From Flaviflexus salsibiostraticola (lineage in GTDB: Bacteria; Actinomycetota; Actinomycetes; Actinomycetales; Actinomycetaceae), in contig NZ_CP034438.1 of assembly GCF_003952265.1 (NCBI RefSeq), positions 1,984,001-2,048,000 of the forward strand: 64,000 bases of DNA, written 5' to 3'. The notes beneath the pieces are model-generated. The model worked only from the letters and a program-made list of their open reading frames with translations, made no database searches and was not told the DNA's origin. Each line of letters begins with the position of its first letter. The first letter of the stretch is position 1. This document shows positions 14,180 through 43,957 of this stretch, one piece after another. The position numbers and the translations under genes are program-made.

Positions 14180-14872
14180 TCAGCGCTGCTCCTCCGCGGC
14201 CTCCGCGATCTCACGGATGGTCTCATCGCGCTCGGCGATGTGGCCGGTCACGAGGAAGGTGATGCGGCGGGCGATCGACACGCCATGGTCGCCGAAGCGC
14301 TCCATGTAGCGCGCGAGGAGGACTGCGTCGATGATCTCCTGGCGGGAGAGATCGAGCGACTCGTCGAGGATGAGGGAGAACGACTTGTGGTGCAGCGCGT
14401 CGAGGACGTTGTCCTCCTCCTCGATCATCTCGGCCAGCGACAGATCGTGCGTGTCGAGAAGCTGGGCGACGCGCTGGCCGACGACCGTCGCGTGCTCGGC
14501 CATCTCGACGAGAAGGTCGTAGATGGGGCCCGAGTTGACGCGCTCGGGGTAACGGCCACGGGCGACATAGGCCACGTGCCTGGCAAGATCGCCCATGCGC
14601 TCAAGGGTGGACGAGATGCGCAGAACCGAGACAACGGTGCGTAGGTCGGCCGCGACGGGCGCCTGGCGGGCGAGGACCGAGATCCCCATCTCGTCGAGGT
14701 TGCGCTCGAGCGCATCGATCCGCTTGTCGGCATCGATGACCTGCTCGGCGAGCGCGATGTTCGCGTCTTTGAGCGACTGTGTCGCGCGCTCCATTGATCG
14801 GGCGGCTTCGCGACCCTGCTTGAGCAGGTCGTCGCCGAGCTGCTGCATTTCCTGCCTGAAGATCTCGCGCAC
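14180..14872 (-). CDS. phoU: Phosphate signalling regulator PhoU
   Basis: A 230-residue protein with the two three-helix PhoU repeats (about 10-105 and 115-210), including LRTVVSVLRISSTLERMGDLA and the second-repeat match LLARYMERFGDHGVSIARR. PhoU links phosphate transport to the sensor kinase and restrains it when phosphate is plentiful. GTG 14872 has AGGAG six bases upstream. It is divergent from senX3-regX3. No pst genes are in the window. On its strand TATGAT (14939-14934) is a strong -10, with GGTGAA-type boxes directly upstream. Confidence 0.94.
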   Translation of the reverse strand: MREIFRQEMQQLGDDLLKQGREAARSMERATQSLKDANIALAEQVIDADKRIDALERNLDEMGISVLARQAPVAADLRTVVSVLRISSTLERMGDLARHVAYVARGRYPERVNSGPIYDLLVEMAEHATVVGQRVAQLLDTHDLSLAEMIEEEDNVLDALHHKSFSLILDESLDLSRQEIIDAVLLARYMERFGDHGVSIARRITFLVTGHIAERDETIREIAEAAEEQR

Positions 14873-14933: not shown

Positions 14934-14982
14934 ATCATACCGAGGTTAACGCCCCGTGATCTTCTGGTGAACGCTCGTGATG
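14934..14982. promoter_or_regulatory. phoU promoter with RegX3/PhoP-like 11-bp direct repeats
   Basis: On the plus strand GGTTAA (14944), CGTGAT (14955), GGTGAA (14966) and a weaker GTGATG (14977) are spaced exactly 11 bases apart. Actinobacterial PhoP/RegX3 boxes are GTTCACC-type direct repeats with 11-bp period, whose complement reads GGTGAAC. On the minus strand the repeats sit directly upstream of the phoU -10 TATGAT (14939-14934), in the -35 position; senX3 starts 50 bases further right. This supports joint control of phoU and senX3-regX3 by RegX3. Confidence 0.6.
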
Positions 14983-15033: not shown

Positions 15034-16188
15034 ATGCCAGACATCGGTATCGTGCAGCTCCTCGTCGCCGCGCTCGCGGGCATCGTCATCGGCGTGGTCG
15101 CCATGTGGGCGCTCAACCGGTCGATGACGAGCGTCGAGGAGATCGACACCGTCTCCGCCTCAGTCGCCGACAGCGACATCCAGTCCGTGCTGACGGCCGT
15201 CCCCCAGGCCCATATCCTTCTCAACGCCGCAGGCGACGTTGAACGGGCCTCGACCATCGCCTACTCCCTCGGCCTCGTCCGGGGCTCGCGGATCATCCGA
15301 TCGGAGATCGTCGCAGCCGTCCACGAGGTCACCGCGGCGGGGGAGCCGAAGGACATGGAGCTGTCGCTCCGCCGGTCGTTCGCGAACACCGGGCGCATCG
15401 TCCTCTCGATCCGCATCGCGCCCATGAGCGGGAACCGCACGCTCATCCTCTTCTTCGACACAACCGAGGCGAAGCGGCTCGAGGAGACGAGGCGCGACTT
15501 CGTCGCGAACATCTCCCACGAGCTCAAGACCCCGATCGGCGCGATTGGGCTCCTGGCGGAGACGATCCAGGACGTCGCCGACGAACCGGAGAACGTCGTC
15601 GCATTCTCGGCCCAGCTGCAGCGCGAATCGGTCCGGCTCGCCTCCCTCGTCCAGGACATCATCGAGCTGTCCCGGGTCCAGGACGGCGCCGCCATCGCCC
15701 ACGGTGAGCTGGTCTCCGTCGATGATGTCGTCGCCGAGGCGATCGATCGGTGCCGGATCGAGGCGGAGAGCCGCGGCATCATTCTCGCCTCGGCGCAGGC
15801 GCCGGACGCCCAGGTGTTCGGCGACAGGCCGCTCCTCACGACCGCGGTGCGCAACCTCGTCGACAACGCGATCCGCTACTCGAACCGGGGCGGGCGCGTA
15901 TCCGTCGGTGTCACGTGCTTCGAGGGTGATGTCCGCATCGCCGTCGTCGACCAGGGCGTCGGCATCCCCCCGGAGCTGCGGGAGCGCGTCTTCGAGCGCT
16001 TCTTCCGGGGCGATGATGCACGCACCCGCGAGGAGGGCGGCACGGGCCTCGGTCTCAGCATCGTCAAACATGTCGCGGCGGACCACGGCGGCCGCATCGA
16101 GCTCTGGAGCGAGCCCTGCAAGGGTTCGACCTTCACCTTCATCATCCCCGAGGCGTACGCGCCGGACACCGAACAAGAGGAACAATGA
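15034..16188 (+). CDS. senX3: Phosphate-sensing histidine kinase SenX3
   Basis: A 384-residue kinase: one membrane helix at about 5-27, a PAS-like domain about 48-140, HisKA with phosphorylated His162 (NISHELKTP), and HATPase_c with N box NLVDNAIRYSN, G1 DQGVGIP and G2 GGTGLGLSIVKH. It phosphorylates RegX3 when phosphate is low. ATG 15034 is six bases after TATCCT (15022-15027) with no SD, so a leaderless start is likely. Its TGA overlaps regX3 (ATGA). Gene order with phoU and gpmA is as in mycobacteria, which supports the name. Confidence 0.93.
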   Translation: MPDIGIVQLLVAALAGIVIGVVAMWALNRSMTSVEEIDTVSASVADSDIQSVLTAVPQAHILLNAAGDVERASTIAYSLGLVRGSRIIRSEIVAAVHEVTAAGEPKDMELSLRRSFANTGRIVLSIRIAPMSGNRTLILFFDTTEAKRLEETRRDFVANISHELKTPIGAIGLLAETIQDVADEPENVVAFSAQLQRESVRLASLVQDIIELSRVQDGAAIAHGELVSVDDVVAEAIDRCRIEAESRGIILASAQAPDAQVFGDRPLLTTAVRNLVDNAIRYSNRGGRVSVGVTCFEGDVRIAVVDQGVGIPPELRERVFERFFRGDDARTREEGGTGLGLSIVKHVAADHGGRIELWSEPCKGSTFTFIIPEAYAPDTEQEEQ

Positions 16189-16871
16189 CAACGATTCTCC
16201 TCGTTGAAGACGAGGCGGCCTACCGCGATACTCTCACCTTCAAGCTCAACCGCGACGGATATGATGTCGTCGCCGTGGGCAACGGCCAGGAGGCCGTCGA
16301 CAGGTTCGAGCGCGCCCGTCCCGACCTCGTCCTGCTCGACCTCATGCTGCCCGGCCTGTCGGGCACCGAAGTATGCCGGCAGATCCGCCAGAAGTCGTCC
16401 GTCCCCGTCATCATGCTGACCGCGAAGGACTCGGAGATCGACAAGGTTGTGGGGCTGGAGATCGGCGCCGATGACTACGTGACGAAGCCCTACTCCTACC
16501 GTGAGCTCGTCGCCCGGATCAAGGCGGTCCTCCGCCGGGGTGCGGCCGAGGAGGAGGACTCACGCGAGTCGACCCTGCGGGTCGGCCGGGTTGCGATGAA
16601 CACGGACCGCCACGAGGTCGCGATCGACGGGGAGAAGGCGGCCATGCCGCTGCGAGAGTTCGAGCTGCTCGAGCTGTTCATGAGGAACCCCGACCGTGTC
16701 CTCACCCGCGCGCAGATTATCGACAGAATCTGGGGCCCGGACTACATCGGTGACACGAAGACCCTCGACGTCCACGTCAAGCGCCTCCGCTCGAAGATCG
16801 AGGTGGAGCCGTCGAAGCCCACCATGCTTCAGACCGTGCGCGGGCTCGGCTACAAGCTCGTCTCGGACTGA
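16185..16871 (+). CDS. regX3: Response regulator RegX3 (OmpR/PhoB family)
   Basis: A 228-residue regulator. Receiver domain about 1-120 with acidic pocket EDE (8-10), phospho-acceptor Asp52 (LLDLMLPG), Thr (MLTAKD) and Lys (VTKPYS). The winged-helix domain about 130-226 ends in LDVHVKRLRSKIE and TVRGLGYKL, the PhoB-type DNA-binding and wing signature. It is expected to bind 11-bp-spaced GTTCACC-like repeats; such repeats occur at 14944-14982 and 33682-33731 in this window. ATGA overlap with senX3. Confidence 0.94.
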   Translation: MTTILLVEDEAAYRDTLTFKLNRDGYDVVAVGNGQEAVDRFERARPDLVLLDLMLPGLSGTEVCRQIRQKSSVPVIMLTAKDSEIDKVVGLEIGADDYVTKPYSYRELVARIKAVLRRGAAEEEDSRESTLRVGRVAMNTDRHEVAIDGEKAAMPLREFELLELFMRNPDRVLTRAQIIDRIWGPDYIGDTKTLDVHVKRLRSKIEVEPSKPTMLQTVRGLGYKLVSD

Positions 16872-32891: not shown

Positions 32892-33557
32892 TTATTGGTC
32901 GAGCCGGGGCGGCGGCGGGTTGAGTGTGCCGAGCCAGAAGAGCCGGCGGAAGTAGATGTTGGCGATGGAGCCGACGAGGAGGGCGGTGATGACCGTGCCG
33001 AGGCCGATGCCGCGCAGCTCTCCGAAGAACGCGAAGGAGCAGATCGCGGCGATGGTGATGAGCGTCCAGTCGAAGATGACCTTGACCGTCCCGAAACGCA
33101 CCTTGGTCACGATCCCGATCGCCTTGACCGCGCCCTCGCCCGGCACGACGAGCACGCCGGGCGAGACCTGGAGTGCGATGCCGAAGGCAAGGATGGTGCA
33201 CCCGATGACGACCACGAGCAGCTGGAGCCACATCGCCTCTGGATTCATCCAGCCCAGCGCCCACAGCGAGATATCGATGAACCCGGAGAAGATGACGTTG
33301 ACGAGGAGCTGGAGCCACTGGATCGGCGGGAACCGCCGCCGCAGGAGGACTGCCTGCAGAACGATGAAGAGGAAGTTGAGAACGAAGGTGAATGCGCCGA
33401 TCGAGGGTGGGAAGCGGAAGCTGGCGACGTAGGACAGCGAGGTGATCGGGGTGGTCCCAAGTGAGGCTTTCGTGATGAACGCGATTCCGAAGGCCGTGAC
33501 GACGACGCCGACGAGGAATCACATGTACCTGGCGAAGAGGGAGGGACGTTTTACCAC
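32892..33557 (-). pseudogene. YczE/YitT-like membrane protein interrupted by a nonsense codon
   Basis: From GTG 33557 the minus strand reads VVKRPSLFARYM, TGA (33521-33519), FLVGVVVTAFGIAFITKA, LGTTPITSLSYVASFRF, and stays open to 32892. The whole (about 221 codons) has five to six membrane spans, including WMNPEAMWLQLLVVVIGCTI and LQVSPGVLVVPGEGAVKAIG, typical of the YczE/YitT-type integral membrane family. The single in-frame TGA replaces a residue inside the first span. No alternative start follows it until ATG 33248, which would lack about half the protein. It is either a recent pseudogene or a sequencing error. Confidence 0.75.
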
Positions 33558-33681
33558 TGTTCGACTTTAGTCCCGTTTCGTGCTGTTTTCCGTCGTCTGT
33601 GACCAGATCGTCCCTGCGTGAGGCTGGGCTGGCGGGGCTGTGACCTGGGTTTTCGGCTGGTGAGGGTCAGAGGTCGACGAG

Positions 33682-33736
33682 TGTGAACTATCTGTGAGTC
33701 ATCGGTGTCGAAAAGGTGAAGTGAGCGTGACATACT
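33682..33736 (+). promoter_or_regulatory. Five tandem RegX3/PhoP-like boxes and -10 before pit
   Basis: TGTGAA (33682), TGTGAG (33693), GGTGTC (33704), GGTGAA (33715) and CGTGAC (33726) are spaced exactly 11 bp. They end at a -10-like CATACT (33731-33736) and so occupy the -35 region of the pit promoter. The unit is the complement of the actinobacterial GTTCACC phosphate box. Five in-phase copies would allow cooperative binding of several RegX3 dimers. The intergenic DNA 33558-33681 otherwise shows nothing. Confidence 0.62.
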
Positions 33737-33787
33737 CGTTCTGGCAACCTGGACAAGAGCGTCCAGCCGGATGTTATGTGGAGTGGC

Positions 33788-35407
33788 ATGGCGACCCGAT
33801 CACCGAAGCCGAACTCAGCCGAAACGCTGGCGTTCCGTGACGTTCTTGAGAAGAATACGGGCTGGAATATAGGTTTCGCTCTCTTGATGGGTGTCTCCTT
33901 CTATCTCTTTGTGAGATGGGGACTGGACTACATTGCCCCGGATGCGAGCGTCCCACTCTTCCTCCTGTCGACGCTCTTCGGTCTCTTCATGGCCTTTAAC
34001 ATTGGCGGGAATGACGTCGCCAACTCCTTCGGCACCTCCGTGGGTGCTGGAACGCTGACGATCAAACAGGCTCTGCTCATCGCTGCCGTGTTCGAGGTCA
34101 GCGGCGCCGTCATCGCGGGCGGTGAGGTCACCGATACGGTGCGCAGCGGCATCGTTGATCTCAGCGCGGTATCCATGAGCGCGAACGATTTCATGTACAT
34201 CATGATGAGCTCGCTGCTCGCCGCCGCGATCTGGCTCCTCTTCGCCTCGAAGAGGGGCTATCCCGTCTCGACGACGCACTCGATCGTCGGTGGCATTGTC
34301 GGTGCCGCCGTCATGGTCGGTGCCGTCACCGGCGCAGACAACGCGTTTGACATGGTCCAGTGGGGCCAGATCGGCCAGATCGCCATCTCCTGGGTGCTGT
34401 CACCGCTGCTCGGCGGGCTCGTCTCGTATGTCATGTACCGGTGGATCAAGAAGCACATCCTCCAGTTCAACGACGCGGCGGACGAAGCGCTGGCGGCGCT
34501 GGGTCAGCGGCGCCAGAAGCATCTCATGGAGCACAAGCGTGCCTTCGAGGTGCTCAGCGACCTGCAGGGCATGGCCTACACGGAGGCTCTCGAGCGCGAC
34601 GAGAGGCGTGTGAAGACCGGCGACTACAAGCTCGACGAGCTCGAATCCGAGTACTACCGCGAGCTGGAGCTCATCGACCGCGAGGCGCGGAAGATCGACG
34701 CCCACCGGGCCCTGGAGAAGTGGGTGCCCGCCCTCGCATCCTTCGGCGCACTCGTCATCGCCTCCATGCTGATCTTCAAGGGCCTGTCCAACCTTGAGCT
34801 GGGACTGACAGCGGAGATGCAGTTCGGAATCCTCGCCATGGTTACTCTCGGCGCGTGGATGGCCACGTCGATCCTTGTCCGTCTCCTCAAGCGCAAGTCA
34901 CTCCAGCGCTCCACCTTCCTCGTGTTCTCGTGGATGCAGGTGTTCACGGCCTCCGCCTTCGCCTTCTCCCACGGCTCGAATGACATCGCCAACGCGATCG
35001 GTCCGTTCGTCGCCATCCTCGACGTTCTCCGAACAGGGACCCTCGAGGACATGGCACCCGTTCCCACGGCCGCGCTCGTCACCTTCGGCGTCGCCCTCGT
35101 CGTGGGCCTGTGGTTCACGGGTCGCAACGTCATCCGCACCGTCGGCACGAGCCTGACGAAGATGCACCCATCGTCGGGTTTCGCGGCAGAGCTGTCGGCC
35201 GCCATGGTCGTCATGGCCGCATCGGTCCTCGGGCTGCCCGTCTCCTCGACCCATATCCTCATCGGCGCCGTCCTCGGCATCGGCGTCGTCAACAGGGCGG
35301 CCAACTGGAAGCTCATGAAGTCGATCGGCATCACCTGGGTCGTCACTCTGCCGGTCGTCTCGATCCTTGCCGCCATCATCGTCATCGTGCTGCGCATGGT
35401 CTTCTGA
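33788..35407 (+). CDS. pit: Inorganic phosphate transporter, Pit family
   Basis: A 539-residue low-affinity phosphate/metal symporter of the PHO4 family. The duplicated signature is clear: [18 protein letters not shown] (about 72-89) and [17 protein letters not shown] (about 397-413), each followed by a [11 protein letters not shown] / [14 protein letters not shown] motif. About ten spans flank a large charged cytoplasmic loop (about 225-310) rich in Glu/Arg. ATG 33788 has GGAG upstream; ATG 33776 is an alternative. The promoter carries phosphate-type boxes, so RegX3 control is likely. DoxX follows 93 bases downstream. Confidence 0.93.
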
Positions 35408-40884: not shown

Positions 40885-41258
40885 GGCTCTTTCTGTTACG
40901 AGGGCAGCGGACAGCAGGCCCTGGCTGGCATATTTTTTGTTTTGGCACCCCGAGTACGCGTGTGATACAAGGAGCCATTAAGAATATAATGCATTGTACG
41001 ACGTTTCGTGTGAAATGGAAGGCCAATTCACGCCACATCTCGTTATAGACGCCAACTAGATTGAGAGTGCTCAGTCGACAACTTCGCGGCATGGAGGGGG
41101 TCGAAGTCCGGAATACGAGAGGCCGTGCGGGAGGAGAGTCTGTCGGGGGGCAGGGAGAGGGGTGACAACTCTGGTCGCCTGCCACCGTTCTGGCCCGGCG
41201 AGGCCGACGGTGGTGCGACTGAGGGCCGACGCGCGGACCTGCCGCACGAGCCCCACGC
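40885..41258. other. AT-richer intergenic region before the IS array
   Basis: No credible gene. 40921-41000 is unusually AT-rich for this chromosome (TATTTTTTGTTTT at 40931 and AATATAATGCATT at 40982), with a possible plus-strand -35 TTGGCA (40943) and -10 GATACA (40965). It probably contains the promoter of the HExxH gene. It may also mark the boundary of foreign DNA. Confidence 0.3.
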
Positions 41259-42535
41259 GGCTTATAGGACAAAATGTGTTGGTTTTGTTTGATCGGAGGG
41301 GTGTCAGTCCCAGGTTGTGATGTAGCTGGTCGAGTGGTGCAGCTCGTTCCAGACGGCTGCGGTGCCGATGCCCGGCAGGCCGATGTCCCGGGCGTGTTCG
41401 CCGCGGCTGGCCGCAGCTCGGTAGTAGGCCTGGATCTGGGTGTCGGTGGGCATGGTCCTGAGGATGTGTGCGGGACTGGCAGGGTATTCAGTGTGCATGT
41501 AGCACCACCACATGATCGCTTTGATCCGCCTGTCCAGGCTCATCCCGCGGTGATCGCGTAGCAGGGCCCGCAGTTGAGTGTTGATCCCACCCTCGATCCG
41601 GTTATTCGTCGCTGGCAGTGGCATGTGCAGGTAGGCGCCGACCGGGAAGTTGGCGGGATCGACGTAGGTGAACAAGGTCTTGGTCCGGATCAGCGTATCG
41701 AGGGCTGAGCGGGCCGTGACCAGACGCTGGTGAGTGAGTACGACCTGCCCCGTGGCGAGTCGAGTGCGCTCAGCCAGGAAGGCCTCCCATGTGGCGCGCC
41801 ATTGGGTGTAAGCGGCCAGCCATGCCGCGGCCCCGGTGTTATCGCGGACGTGGAGCAGCGCTCTAGCCAGGCCGTAGAGTTCCACTCCGGCCTGAGTGCG
41901 GGGCCGGGTCGTGGTCTGGCGACGCACCTGGCTGAAAGCATGGAACGTACAGCGCTGGACCTTCGTGGTGGGCCAGTGCGCCCGGCGGGCTTTGGCAAAG
42001 CCTGATCCACCATCGGTGACCACTACCTGTGGCGGTGCGATCCGGGCCAGCAGCGCACCCCAGGCCTGGCTGTGTTCACTGCGTGCGAGGTACCAGCCCA
42101 CGACATGGGTGTCGGTGGAGGCGATCAGGATCACGGCGCTGCGTCCGAGGTGGATCCCATCGACGTAGATCACCCGGTGGACCTCGTCGACCACCTCGGG
42201 GGTGGGCCACAGCTGCCAGAACCGTGCGGTGCGCCGACGGAAGGTCCGTCCCGCCCCGGGCAGGTCTCGCTGGCGCTGGCGGGAAAACAGAAAGGACAAG
42301 AACAGGGCGAAGTCTTTCGCGGAGGTGTCGATCGCCGCTACGCGACTCGTCCTGCACCCGGCACAGCGGTAGCGCTGACGTCCCGTACTGGTCTTTCCAT
42401 AGCGTGTCATCGCCTGCTCGCACGGGCGGCAATAAGGAGTGTTCACCCTCCCTATCAGGCAACTTGGACCCTGCCTTTTCGGTGAGAACGCGCCGAAAAG
42501 TCGGGATCAAACCAACACGAAATGTCCTATAAGCC
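41259..42535 (-). mobile_element. IS1249-type element, copy 1
   Basis: A 1,277-bp element bounded by the inverted repeat GGCTTATAGGACA (41259-41271) and TGTCCTATAAGCC (42523-42535), the similarity continuing inside as AAATGTGTTGGTTT against its mate. One transposase gene fills it. It is followed by 145 bp that is also repeated after copy 2, so the repeating unit is 1,422 bp. Confidence 0.85.
41304..42446 (-). CDS. IS1249-type transposase (IS256-related), copy 1
   Basis: A 380-residue DDE transposase. The N-terminal zinc ribbon CRPCEQAM...RYRCAGC (Cys pairs at about 6/9 and 28/31) is followed by IYVDGIHLGR (first Asp), VVTDGGSGF (second Asp) and ATNNRIEGGINTQLR (Glu), the IS1249 subgroup pattern near IS256. 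Intact, with ATG 42446. Copy 1 has Gly in the segment FPVGAYLHM, copy 2 Asp. Confidence 0.92.
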   Translation of the reverse strand: MNTPYCRPCEQAMTRYGKTSTGRQRYRCAGCRTSRVAAIDTSAKDFALFLSFLFSRQRQRDLPGAGRTFRRRTARFWQLWPTPEVVDEVHRVIYVDGIHLGRSAVILIASTDTHVVGWYLARSEHSQAWGALLARIAPPQVVVTDGGSGFAKARRAHWPTTKVQRCTFHAFSQVRRQTTTRPRTQAGVELYGLARALLHVRDNTGAAAWLAAYTQWRATWEAFLAERTRLATGQVVLTHQRLVTARSALDTLIRTKTLFTYVDPANFPVGAYLHMPLPATNNRIEGGINTQLRALLRDHRGMSLDRRIKAIMWWCYMHTEYPASPAHILRTMPTDTQIQAYYRAAASRGEHARDIGLPGIGTAAVWNELHHSTSYITTWD

Positions 42536-42680
42536 GGCCCCGTGAAACCAACTTCAACCCCCACTTTTCCGCGTCAAAGCAACCAAAGGTCGGGGTCAAG
42601 CCAACACGAAATGTCCACCCATCAAGTTCAGCCGCACGAACTTCAACACCGACCTAATGGCGACACAGCAACAAAAGATC

Positions 42681-43957
42681 GGCTTATAGGACAAAATGTG
42701 TTGGTTTTGTTTGATCGGAGGGGTGTCAGTCCCAGGTTGTGATGTAGCTGGTCGAGTGGTGCAGCTCGTTCCAGACGGCTGCGGTGCCGATGCCCGGCAG
42801 GCCGATGTCCCGGGCGTGTTCGCCGCGGCTGGCCGCAGCTCGGTAGTAGGCCTGGATCTGGGTGTCGGTGGGCATGGTCCTGAGGATGCGTGCGGGACTG
42901 GCAGGGTATTCAGTGTGCATGTAGCACCACCACATGATCGCTTTGATCCGCCTGTCCAGGCTCATCCCGCGGTGATCGCGTAGCAGGGCCCGCAGTTGAG
43001 TGTTGATCCCACCCTCGATCCGGTTATTCGTCGCTGGCAGTGGCATGTGCAGGTAGGCGTCGACCGGGAAGTTGGCGGGATCGACGTAGGTGAACAAGGT
43101 CTTGGTCCGGATCAGCGTATCGAGGGCTGAGCGGGCCGTGACCAGACGCTGGTGAGTGAGTACGACCTGCCCCGTGGCGAGTCGAGTGCGCTCAGCCAGG
43201 AAGGCCTCCCATGTGGCGCGCCATTGGGTGTAAGCGGCCAGCCATGCCGCGGCCCCGGTGTTATCGCGGACGTGGAGCAGCGCTCTAGCCAGGCCGTAGA
43301 GTTCCACTCCGGCCTGAGTGCGGGGCCGGGTCGTGGTCTGGCGACGCACCTGGCTGAAAGCATGGAACGTACAGCGCTGGACCTTCGTGGTGGGCCAGTG
43401 CGCCCGGCGGGCTTTGGCAAAGCCTGATCCACCATCGGTGACCACTACCTGTGGCGGTGCGATCCGGGCCAGCAGCGCACCCCAGGCCTGGCTGTGTTCA
43501 CTGCGTGCGAGGTACCAGCCCACGACATGGGTGTCGGTGGAGGCGATCAGGATCACGGCGCTGCGTCCGAGGTGGATCCCATCGACGTAGATCACCCGGT
43601 GGACCTCGTCGACCACCTCGGGGGTGGGCCACAGCTGCCAGAACCGTGCGGTGCGCCGACGGAAGGTCCGTCCCGCCCCGGGCAGGTCTCGCTGGCGCTG
43701 GCGGGAAAACAGAAAGGACAAGAACAGGGCGAAGTCTTTCGCGGAGGTGTCGATCGCCGCTACGCGACTCGTCCTGCACCCGGCACAGCGGTAGCGCTGA
43801 CGTCCCGTACTGGTCTTTCCATAGCGTGTCATCGCCTGCTCGCACGGGCGGCAATAAGGAGTGTTCACCCTCCCTATCAGGCAACTTGGACCCGGCCTTT
43901 TCGGTGAGAACGCGCCGAAAAGTCGGGATCAAACCAACACGAAATGTCCTATAAGCC
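42681..43957 (-). mobile_element. IS1249-type element, copy 2
   Basis: Same length and ends as copy 1 (GGCTTATAGGACA at 42681, TATAAGCC at 43957). It follows the 145-bp spacer without any target duplication of its own, so tandem duplication rather than independent insertion is indicated. Confidence 0.85.
42726..43868 (-). CDS. IS1249-type transposase (IS256-related), copy 2
   Basis: A 380-residue transposase identical to copy 1 except Asp for Gly in FPVDAYLHM and Arg for His in SPARILRTM. All zinc-ribbon Cys and the DDE residues are kept, so both copies could be active. Neither change touches a catalytic residue. Confidence 0.92.
   Translation of the reverse strand: MNTPYCRPCEQAMTRYGKTSTGRQRYRCAGCRTSRVAAIDTSAKDFALFLSFLFSRQRQRDLPGAGRTFRRRTARFWQLWPTPEVVDEVHRVIYVDGIHLGRSAVILIASTDTHVVGWYLARSEHSQAWGALLARIAPPQVVVTDGGSGFAKARRAHWPTTKVQRCTFHAFSQVRRQTTTRPRTQAGVELYGLARALLHVRDNTGAAAWLAAYTQWRATWEAFLAERTRLATGQVVLTHQRLVTARSALDTLIRTKTLFTYVDPANFPVDAYLHMPLPATNNRIEGGINTQLRALLRDHRGMSLDRRIKAIMWWCYMHTEYPASPARILRTMPTDTQIQAYYRAAASRGEHARDIGLPGIGTAAVWNELHHSTSYITTWD

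Follow-up and report, generated by a model that had tools for sequence, protein, structure and literature searches.

Control of Pit-type phosphate transporter genes by PhoP/RegX3-type regulators is already published for Streptomyces and Microlunatus and is not new. The pitH2 gene of Streptomyces coelicolor is activated by PhoP and needs it, and its operator is described as having four core and two ancillary units (PMC7866108). Since that operator is known, the five phosphate boxes that an initial annotation of the present DNA placed before pit, and took to be more copies than usual, are not beyond what has been described. In Microlunatus phosphovorus, two pit promoters are targets of the regulator PolR, which recognises GTTCACnnnnnGTTCaC there, and activation is inferred by the authors (PMC6754071). 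In Corynebacterium glutamicum, the PhoR motif CCTGTGAAaatCCTGTGAA has an 11-bp period, and PhoR~P is reported to bind pitA, which it might repress (PMC3353115); the contrary view, that pitA is not regulated by PhoRS, is stated in a review (PMC7866108). The half-site core of mycobacterial RegX3 is GTGAAC, described there as an inverted and not a direct repeat (PMC7525159). Among the matches listed for a literature search on Flaviflexus and phosphate, no title or abstract opening dealt with phosphate control in this genus.

The pit promoter of Flaviflexus salsibiostraticola resembles these systems in different ways. With the pitH2 operator it shares a Pit-family gene, 11-nt direct repeats and units of unequal strength, but in S. 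coelicolor six units were footprinted and PhoP-dependent expression was shown (PMC7866108), whereas pit here has two conserved units, reversed relative to pst and predicted from sequence. The PolR sites of M. phosphovorus have the same 11-bp period before pit and pstS as the present array, although the present repeats are weaker and one M. phosphovorus pit promoter has both a footprint and ChIP (PMC6754071). The C. glutamicum site has a TGTGAA core, an 11-bp period and a phosphate regulator at a Pit gene, as here; the regulator pair there is named PhoRS, and pitA is possibly repressed (PMC3353115). The nearest comparison is within the genome itself: the pst and phoU-senX3 boxes presumably answer to the same regulator as pit, and pst shares its 11-bp grid and its register to the -10. 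The pst box lies on the coding strand and is nearer to consensus, while the pit box lies on the other strand. As read from the sequence, the pit site is unusual solely in that its units are turned round while keeping to this grid.

The pit gene, its proposed regulators and other Pho boxes

The window, meaning the whole stretch of DNA analysed, is 64 kb long (G000:C1:1984001-2048000). It comes from one of six Flaviflexus genomes (G000-G005, G000 being the present genome). The pit gene (33788..35407, plus strand) encodes a PHO4-family phosphate transporter (PF01384, 356.6 bits, scanned from 33776) and is the sole PHO4 match in the genome. Judged by the Pit protein, the closest named relative is Flaviflexus huanghaiensis, of the family Actinomycetaceae, with 93% identity. 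A GGAG ribosome-binding site (33780..33783, plus) precedes the start at 33788, within GGAGTGGCATG in G000, G001, G002 and G004 and GGAGTGACATG in G003, and transcription is predicted to start at about 33743. Elsewhere in the window, one element is present twice in tandem, at 41258-42471 and 42680-43893; each copy carries a 1143-bp gene for a Mutator/MULE-like transposase, and the two genes differ at 2 positions.

The initial annotation also placed senX3-regX3 in the same window, and domain matches bear this out. The senX3 histidine kinase gene (15034..16188, plus) matches HisKA and HATPase_c; its reading frame is open from 14977, and the start was set by an ATG aligned in five genomes. The PnpS and PhoR models score under their cut-offs against its product. 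The regX3 response regulator gene (16185..16871, plus) matches Response_reg and Trans_reg_C, and the closest solved structure to its product is RegX3 2oqr (307 bits), with MtrA at 203. The phoU gene is there too (14180..14872, minus; TIGR02135, 158 bits, cut-off 130).

A three-unit Pho box in the phoU-senX3 gap (14944..14972, plus; GGTTAAC, CGTGATC and GGTGAAC) serves as a yardstick, its pairs scoring 12.5 and 16.2 bits when left out of the matrix described below. GGTTAAC with a partner at 11-bp spacing is found before senX3, on the senX3 strand, in all six genomes, weakly in G001. In five of them phoU adjoins, and in G005 no phoU reading frame of at least 150 aa was recognised beside senX3. 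Because these boxes are at the same time canonically oriented with respect to phoU, senX3 cannot serve as a test of sign for reversed boxes and was dropped.

In five of the six genomes, the coding strand of the pst promoter (C1:1500766 in the present one) carries two adjacent units that resemble GTTCACC or GTTAACC; that of G005 has a weak pair only (11/14) in the 170 bp read. The pstB gene is over the curated cut-off in all six, and in the present genome the NCBIfam cut-offs are exceeded by pstC, pstA and pstB, with pstS at 198.9 against a cut-off of 205. The earlier suggestion that phosphate is taken up through Pit rather than Pst fails, because the genome has pstS, pstC, pstA and pstB, preceded by a canonical box that is stronger than that of pit; a replacement of Pst by Pit is likewise rejected.

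A scan of the genome with GGTGAACNNNNGGTGAAC, allowing up to three mismatches, gave 261 places against 89 for the control; the pit pairs need at least four mismatches and hence cannot show up in it. Among the matches listed are places upstream of pst, in the phoU-senX3 box, before a PnrA-like lipoprotein gene and inside an ABC-transporter gene. The box before the PnrA-like (Bmp) gene is near consensus (GTTCACC-GCCT-GTTAACA, G000:C1:960062-960079; L097 2063-2080) and lies about 58 bp ahead of it, making this gene a candidate for a further member of the Pho regulon.

Chance, strength and conservation of the repeat units

Re-reading the sequence confirms the array as first described, with GTG units spaced by 11 bp over 33682-33736. 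The exact 11-mers on the plus strand are TGTGAACTATC (unit 1, 33682..33692), TGTGAGTCATC (unit 2, 33693..33703), GGTGTCGAAAA (unit 3, 33704..33714), GGTGAAGTGAG (unit 4, 33715..33725) and CGTGACATACT (unit 5), the last of which is closed by CATACT. The 2.6-Mb single-contig genome has two places with five GTGs in steps of 11 bp, one being the pit promoter. The sole other such array is an 11-bp tandem repeat of GTTCTGGTTGT in 6.2 copies, at G000:C1:1885859 (L133 1479-1548). The mirror control for this search carries no information, because the five-GTG pattern is the same when read backwards.

Scored against the fixed consensus GGTGAAC, the five units sum to 24/35, the window maximum at period 11. 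Under a first-order Markov null of the 237-bp intergenic stretch that holds the units, the sum was reached by 1/4000 sequences (0.0015 with periods 9-13 all allowed). These figures are to be read with some caution: another part of the window reaches a sum of 24 at one place with period 15, and 12/420 permutations of GGTGAAC also give 24 in the pit intergenic stretch, several of them being the same GTG phase in a shifted frame. Since the sum is the window maximum at its period and so rare under the null, chance alone is an unlikely source of the 11-bp phase.

The strength of the units as Pho boxes is a separate question. A weighted Pho-box matrix was built from 15 pst and senX3 pairs of the genus, with the pit pairs excluded and the G005 pst promoter left out. 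By this matrix, the half-site scores of units 1-5 are 8.3, 0.3, -3.0, 7.5 and -1.3, where the consensus is about 11, and the four adjacent pairs score 10.0, -5.4, 5.4 and 6.8 bits. In the forward (pst) orientation the pairs score -8.2 to -15.5 bits, and all fit better reversed. The first pair, at 10.0 bits, is 11th among 127,966 window positions. When each training promoter is removed in turn, the pst pairs score 20.8-25.2 bits and the senX3 pairs 11.1-22.9 bits (the weaker ones 11.1-12.5), except for the two of G001, which score 3.9 and 6.8. This puts the first pit pair far under pst and near the weaker senX3 pairs. Its orthologues score 16.3 bits in G004, 11.8 in G003 and 4.6 in G002. Counted as matches to the 7-nt core GTTCACC in adjacent units, the best pit pair has 10/14, 13/15 training pairs have 11-13/14, and the two senX3 pairs of G001 have 9. 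Over the 300 bp that precede pit, the matrix scores highest outside the array, near 33648 (10.7 bits), and this stretch as a whole is not significant in the present genome (p = 0.07 by matrix). Of the features expected of a PHO box, pit has the direct repeat of at least two 11-bp units and the genome has a cognate SenX3-RegX3. A coding-strand GTTCACC, as in the pst promoters of the genus, is absent from pit, where the register fits and the orientation is reversed.

Conservation separates the units more clearly. The pit promoters of G000, G003, G002, G004 and G001 were anchored on the -10, with G001 slid by one base. When the reversed Pho half-site is averaged over these five promoters, the best of 158 offsets is -49 and the second best -38, the positions of units 1 and 2; units 3, 4 and 5 rank 13, 7 and 35. 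Unit 1 is a conserved RegX3-type half-site, with GTGAAC in all five promoters (p 0.0006-0.0011 in each). Unit 2 is a weaker second half-site, with p values against each promoter's own Markov null of 0.051 in G000, 0.015 in G003, 0.34 in G002, 0.006 in G004 and 0.042 in G001. Unit 3 matches the Pho half-site poorly, with p values of 0.12-0.38 in the four promoters that needed no shift, and what is kept across those four is its TGTCG; a weak -35-like TCGAAA (33708-33713) lies inside it, 17 bp upstream of the -10. Unit 4 is a good half-site in the present genome only, with p values of 0.0018 in G000, 0.06 in G003, 0.91 in G002, 0.20 in G004 and 0.37 in G001. Unit 5 overlaps an extended -10, TGA-CATACT (33728..33736, plus), which recurs as TGn-[C/A]ATA[A/C]T in all five promoters when read by eye; the hexamer is CATACT in G000 and CATAAT or AATAAT in three relatives. 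By sequence comparison, the conserved parts of the pit promoter are units 1-2, at about -61 to -40, and the putative extended -10. Thus, of the five boxes first proposed, units 1 and 2 stand as a conserved pair, units 3 and 4 have not kept the Pho half-site, and unit 5 coincides with the putative extended -10. The accompanying claim of RegX3/PhoP-type repeats holds in so far as units 1-2 resemble a conserved RegX3-type pair, though a weak one at 10.0 bits.

The upstream neighbour of pit changes within the genus. A divergent DUF6198 gene is found beside pit in G000 and G003 only, of the six genomes, in tblastn searches (E <= 1e-3) that used a fragment of 118 residues and covered the upstream 3000 bp in G000 and G003 and 1500 bp in the other four. 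A main role of the repeats in serving this gene was rejected on these grounds, and the RegX3-type element is assigned to pit because it stays while the neighbour changes. In the present genome the DUF6198 gene (32892-33551, minus strand) has an in-frame stop near its start; the same place in F. huanghaiensis (L002) is open over 221 aa.

The weak scores of the pit pairs leave room for another source of the repeats. MtrA- and GlnR-like regulators also belong to the OmpR family and have an 11-bp repeat. It is conceivable, if doubtful, that another member of this family reads the pair, or that none does and the array is a decayed ancestral Pho box with chance GTGs. Such a reading draws on the OmpR-type AfsQ1, reported to have the 11-bp repeat GTnAC-n6-GTnAC (PMC6988585), but it sits poorly with GTGAAC in all five promoters, with a second-ranked unit 2 exactly 11 bp on, and with the clear Pho boxes in 12/32 relatives' pit promoters. 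One further candidate, a CRP/GlxR palindrome (TGTGA-N6-TCACA) at unit 1, was rejected, as the second half is not TCACA in the five promoters.

Orientation, core promoter and the direction of control

In the family, Pit is present in 32/213 genomes (E <= 1e-120). In 12/32 of the 300-bp stretches before the pit match, a Pho pair on the coding strand scores at least 14 bits, against a null of 0.4% per stretch and 0/28 coding controls at 12 bits. A reversed pair of at least 14 bits is found in 2/32: that of G004 is orthologous to units 1-2, and that of G090 is accompanied by a forward pair of 23 bits. Among named Pit loci, whose species are partly repeated, 22 were scored, with 7 forward pairs and 1 reversed pair at 14 bits (L022, which also has a forward one); the count fell from 24 with L020, at a contig end, unscored and L002 counted as G003. 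The stretch taken as upstream of L057 is not the promoter of its pit gene, owing to the strand, and L002 was substituted. On the contrast of 12 forward with 2 reversed pairs, Pho control of this Pit family looks common and mostly canonical. In one of the surveyed genomes, the Pit gene (G093:C23:18416-20032) is read with one internal TAG.

The canonical arrangement also occurs within the genus. The pst promoters of five genomes and the pit promoter of G005, the genome least similar to the present one in Pit and RegX3 within the genus, have strong coding-strand boxes 49 and 38 bp before the -10 and a further one at 16 bp. The G005 pit array, upstream of 7901 on G005:C44 (L061), reads GTTTACC-GTTAACC-x-ATTCACC-N9-CACGCT. 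The -10s in these promoters, assigned by eye, are TAGCGT and TACCGT for pst and CACGCT for G005 pit, all far from TATAAT. The pit promoter of G000 keeps to this 11-bp grid, and its first unit likewise lies 49 bp before the putative -10, but its units are reversed relative to pst.

The initial annotation had all five in-phase boxes stand in for a -35, making pit strictly RegX3-activated. Beyond the low frequency of five GTG units at 11 bp in Markov sequences, this model can point to unit 4, which begins 16 bp ahead of the -10 like the last pst box, and to a scan for consensus promoters before pit, which found no -35/-10 pair. It is nevertheless very improbable: the Pho half-site is unconserved in units 3-4, unit 5 falls on the putative extended -10, the units face opposite to pst, and the pit -10 is nearer consensus than those of pst or G005 pit. 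Because this near-consensus -10 with its TGn is unlike the pst and G005 ones, pit is read as a promoter that could fire by itself and be tuned by RegX3. A good -10 alone does not exclude Pho control, since phoU appears to combine the two: its candidate -10, TATGAT, lies 4 bp from the Pho box and is kept in five genomes (the 4-bp spacing as read outside G004).

The preferred reading, held tentatively at a probability of about 0.42, is a two-unit RegX3 site (33682-33703) in an unusual orientation that may tune a pit promoter already equipped with a good -10. Units 1-2 would be a RegX3 site directly upstream of the core promoter, and the extended -10 would allow basal pit expression even when no activator is bound. 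Under phosphate scarcity, SenX3 would phosphorylate RegX3, and RegX3~P would bind units 1-2 head-to-tail. The expression of pit would then be adjusted, and would more probably be raised than lowered, because units 1-2 fill the same slots as the strong pst pair. Several points count against a RegX3 pair, including its weakness in the present genome, the 4.6 bits in G002, the one-base slide in G001 and an orientation opposite to pst and to the strong pit boxes of 12 relatives.

The direction of control could also be the reverse. RegX3~P on the reversed pair would then lower pit at low phosphate and leave uptake to Pst, the extended -10 keeping pit on by default. The reversed orientation, the good -10 and the report on PhoR~P at C. 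glutamicum pitA (PMC3353115) argue for repression, whereas the position argues for activation, as the core promoter is not covered by the conserved pair, which is placed upstream of it, and unit 4, which does overlap the core, is not conserved. Given also the statement that C. glutamicum pitA is not PhoRS-regulated (PMC7866108), repression seems the less likely direction here. Less likely still is that, within the genus, the pit promoter swapped a canonical coding-strand box and poor -10, as in G005, for a reversed box and extended -10, with the sign of RegX3 flipping from activation to repression.

Should RegX3 act at pit, the closely related pit promoters of G000-G004 would differ from G005 pit and from pst in box orientation on the same grid and register. 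Such a set would amount to a natural experiment on the tolerance of a PhoB-family activator for boxes in reversed orientation. Failing that, pit would be one further Pho-controlled Pit gene beside those already described.
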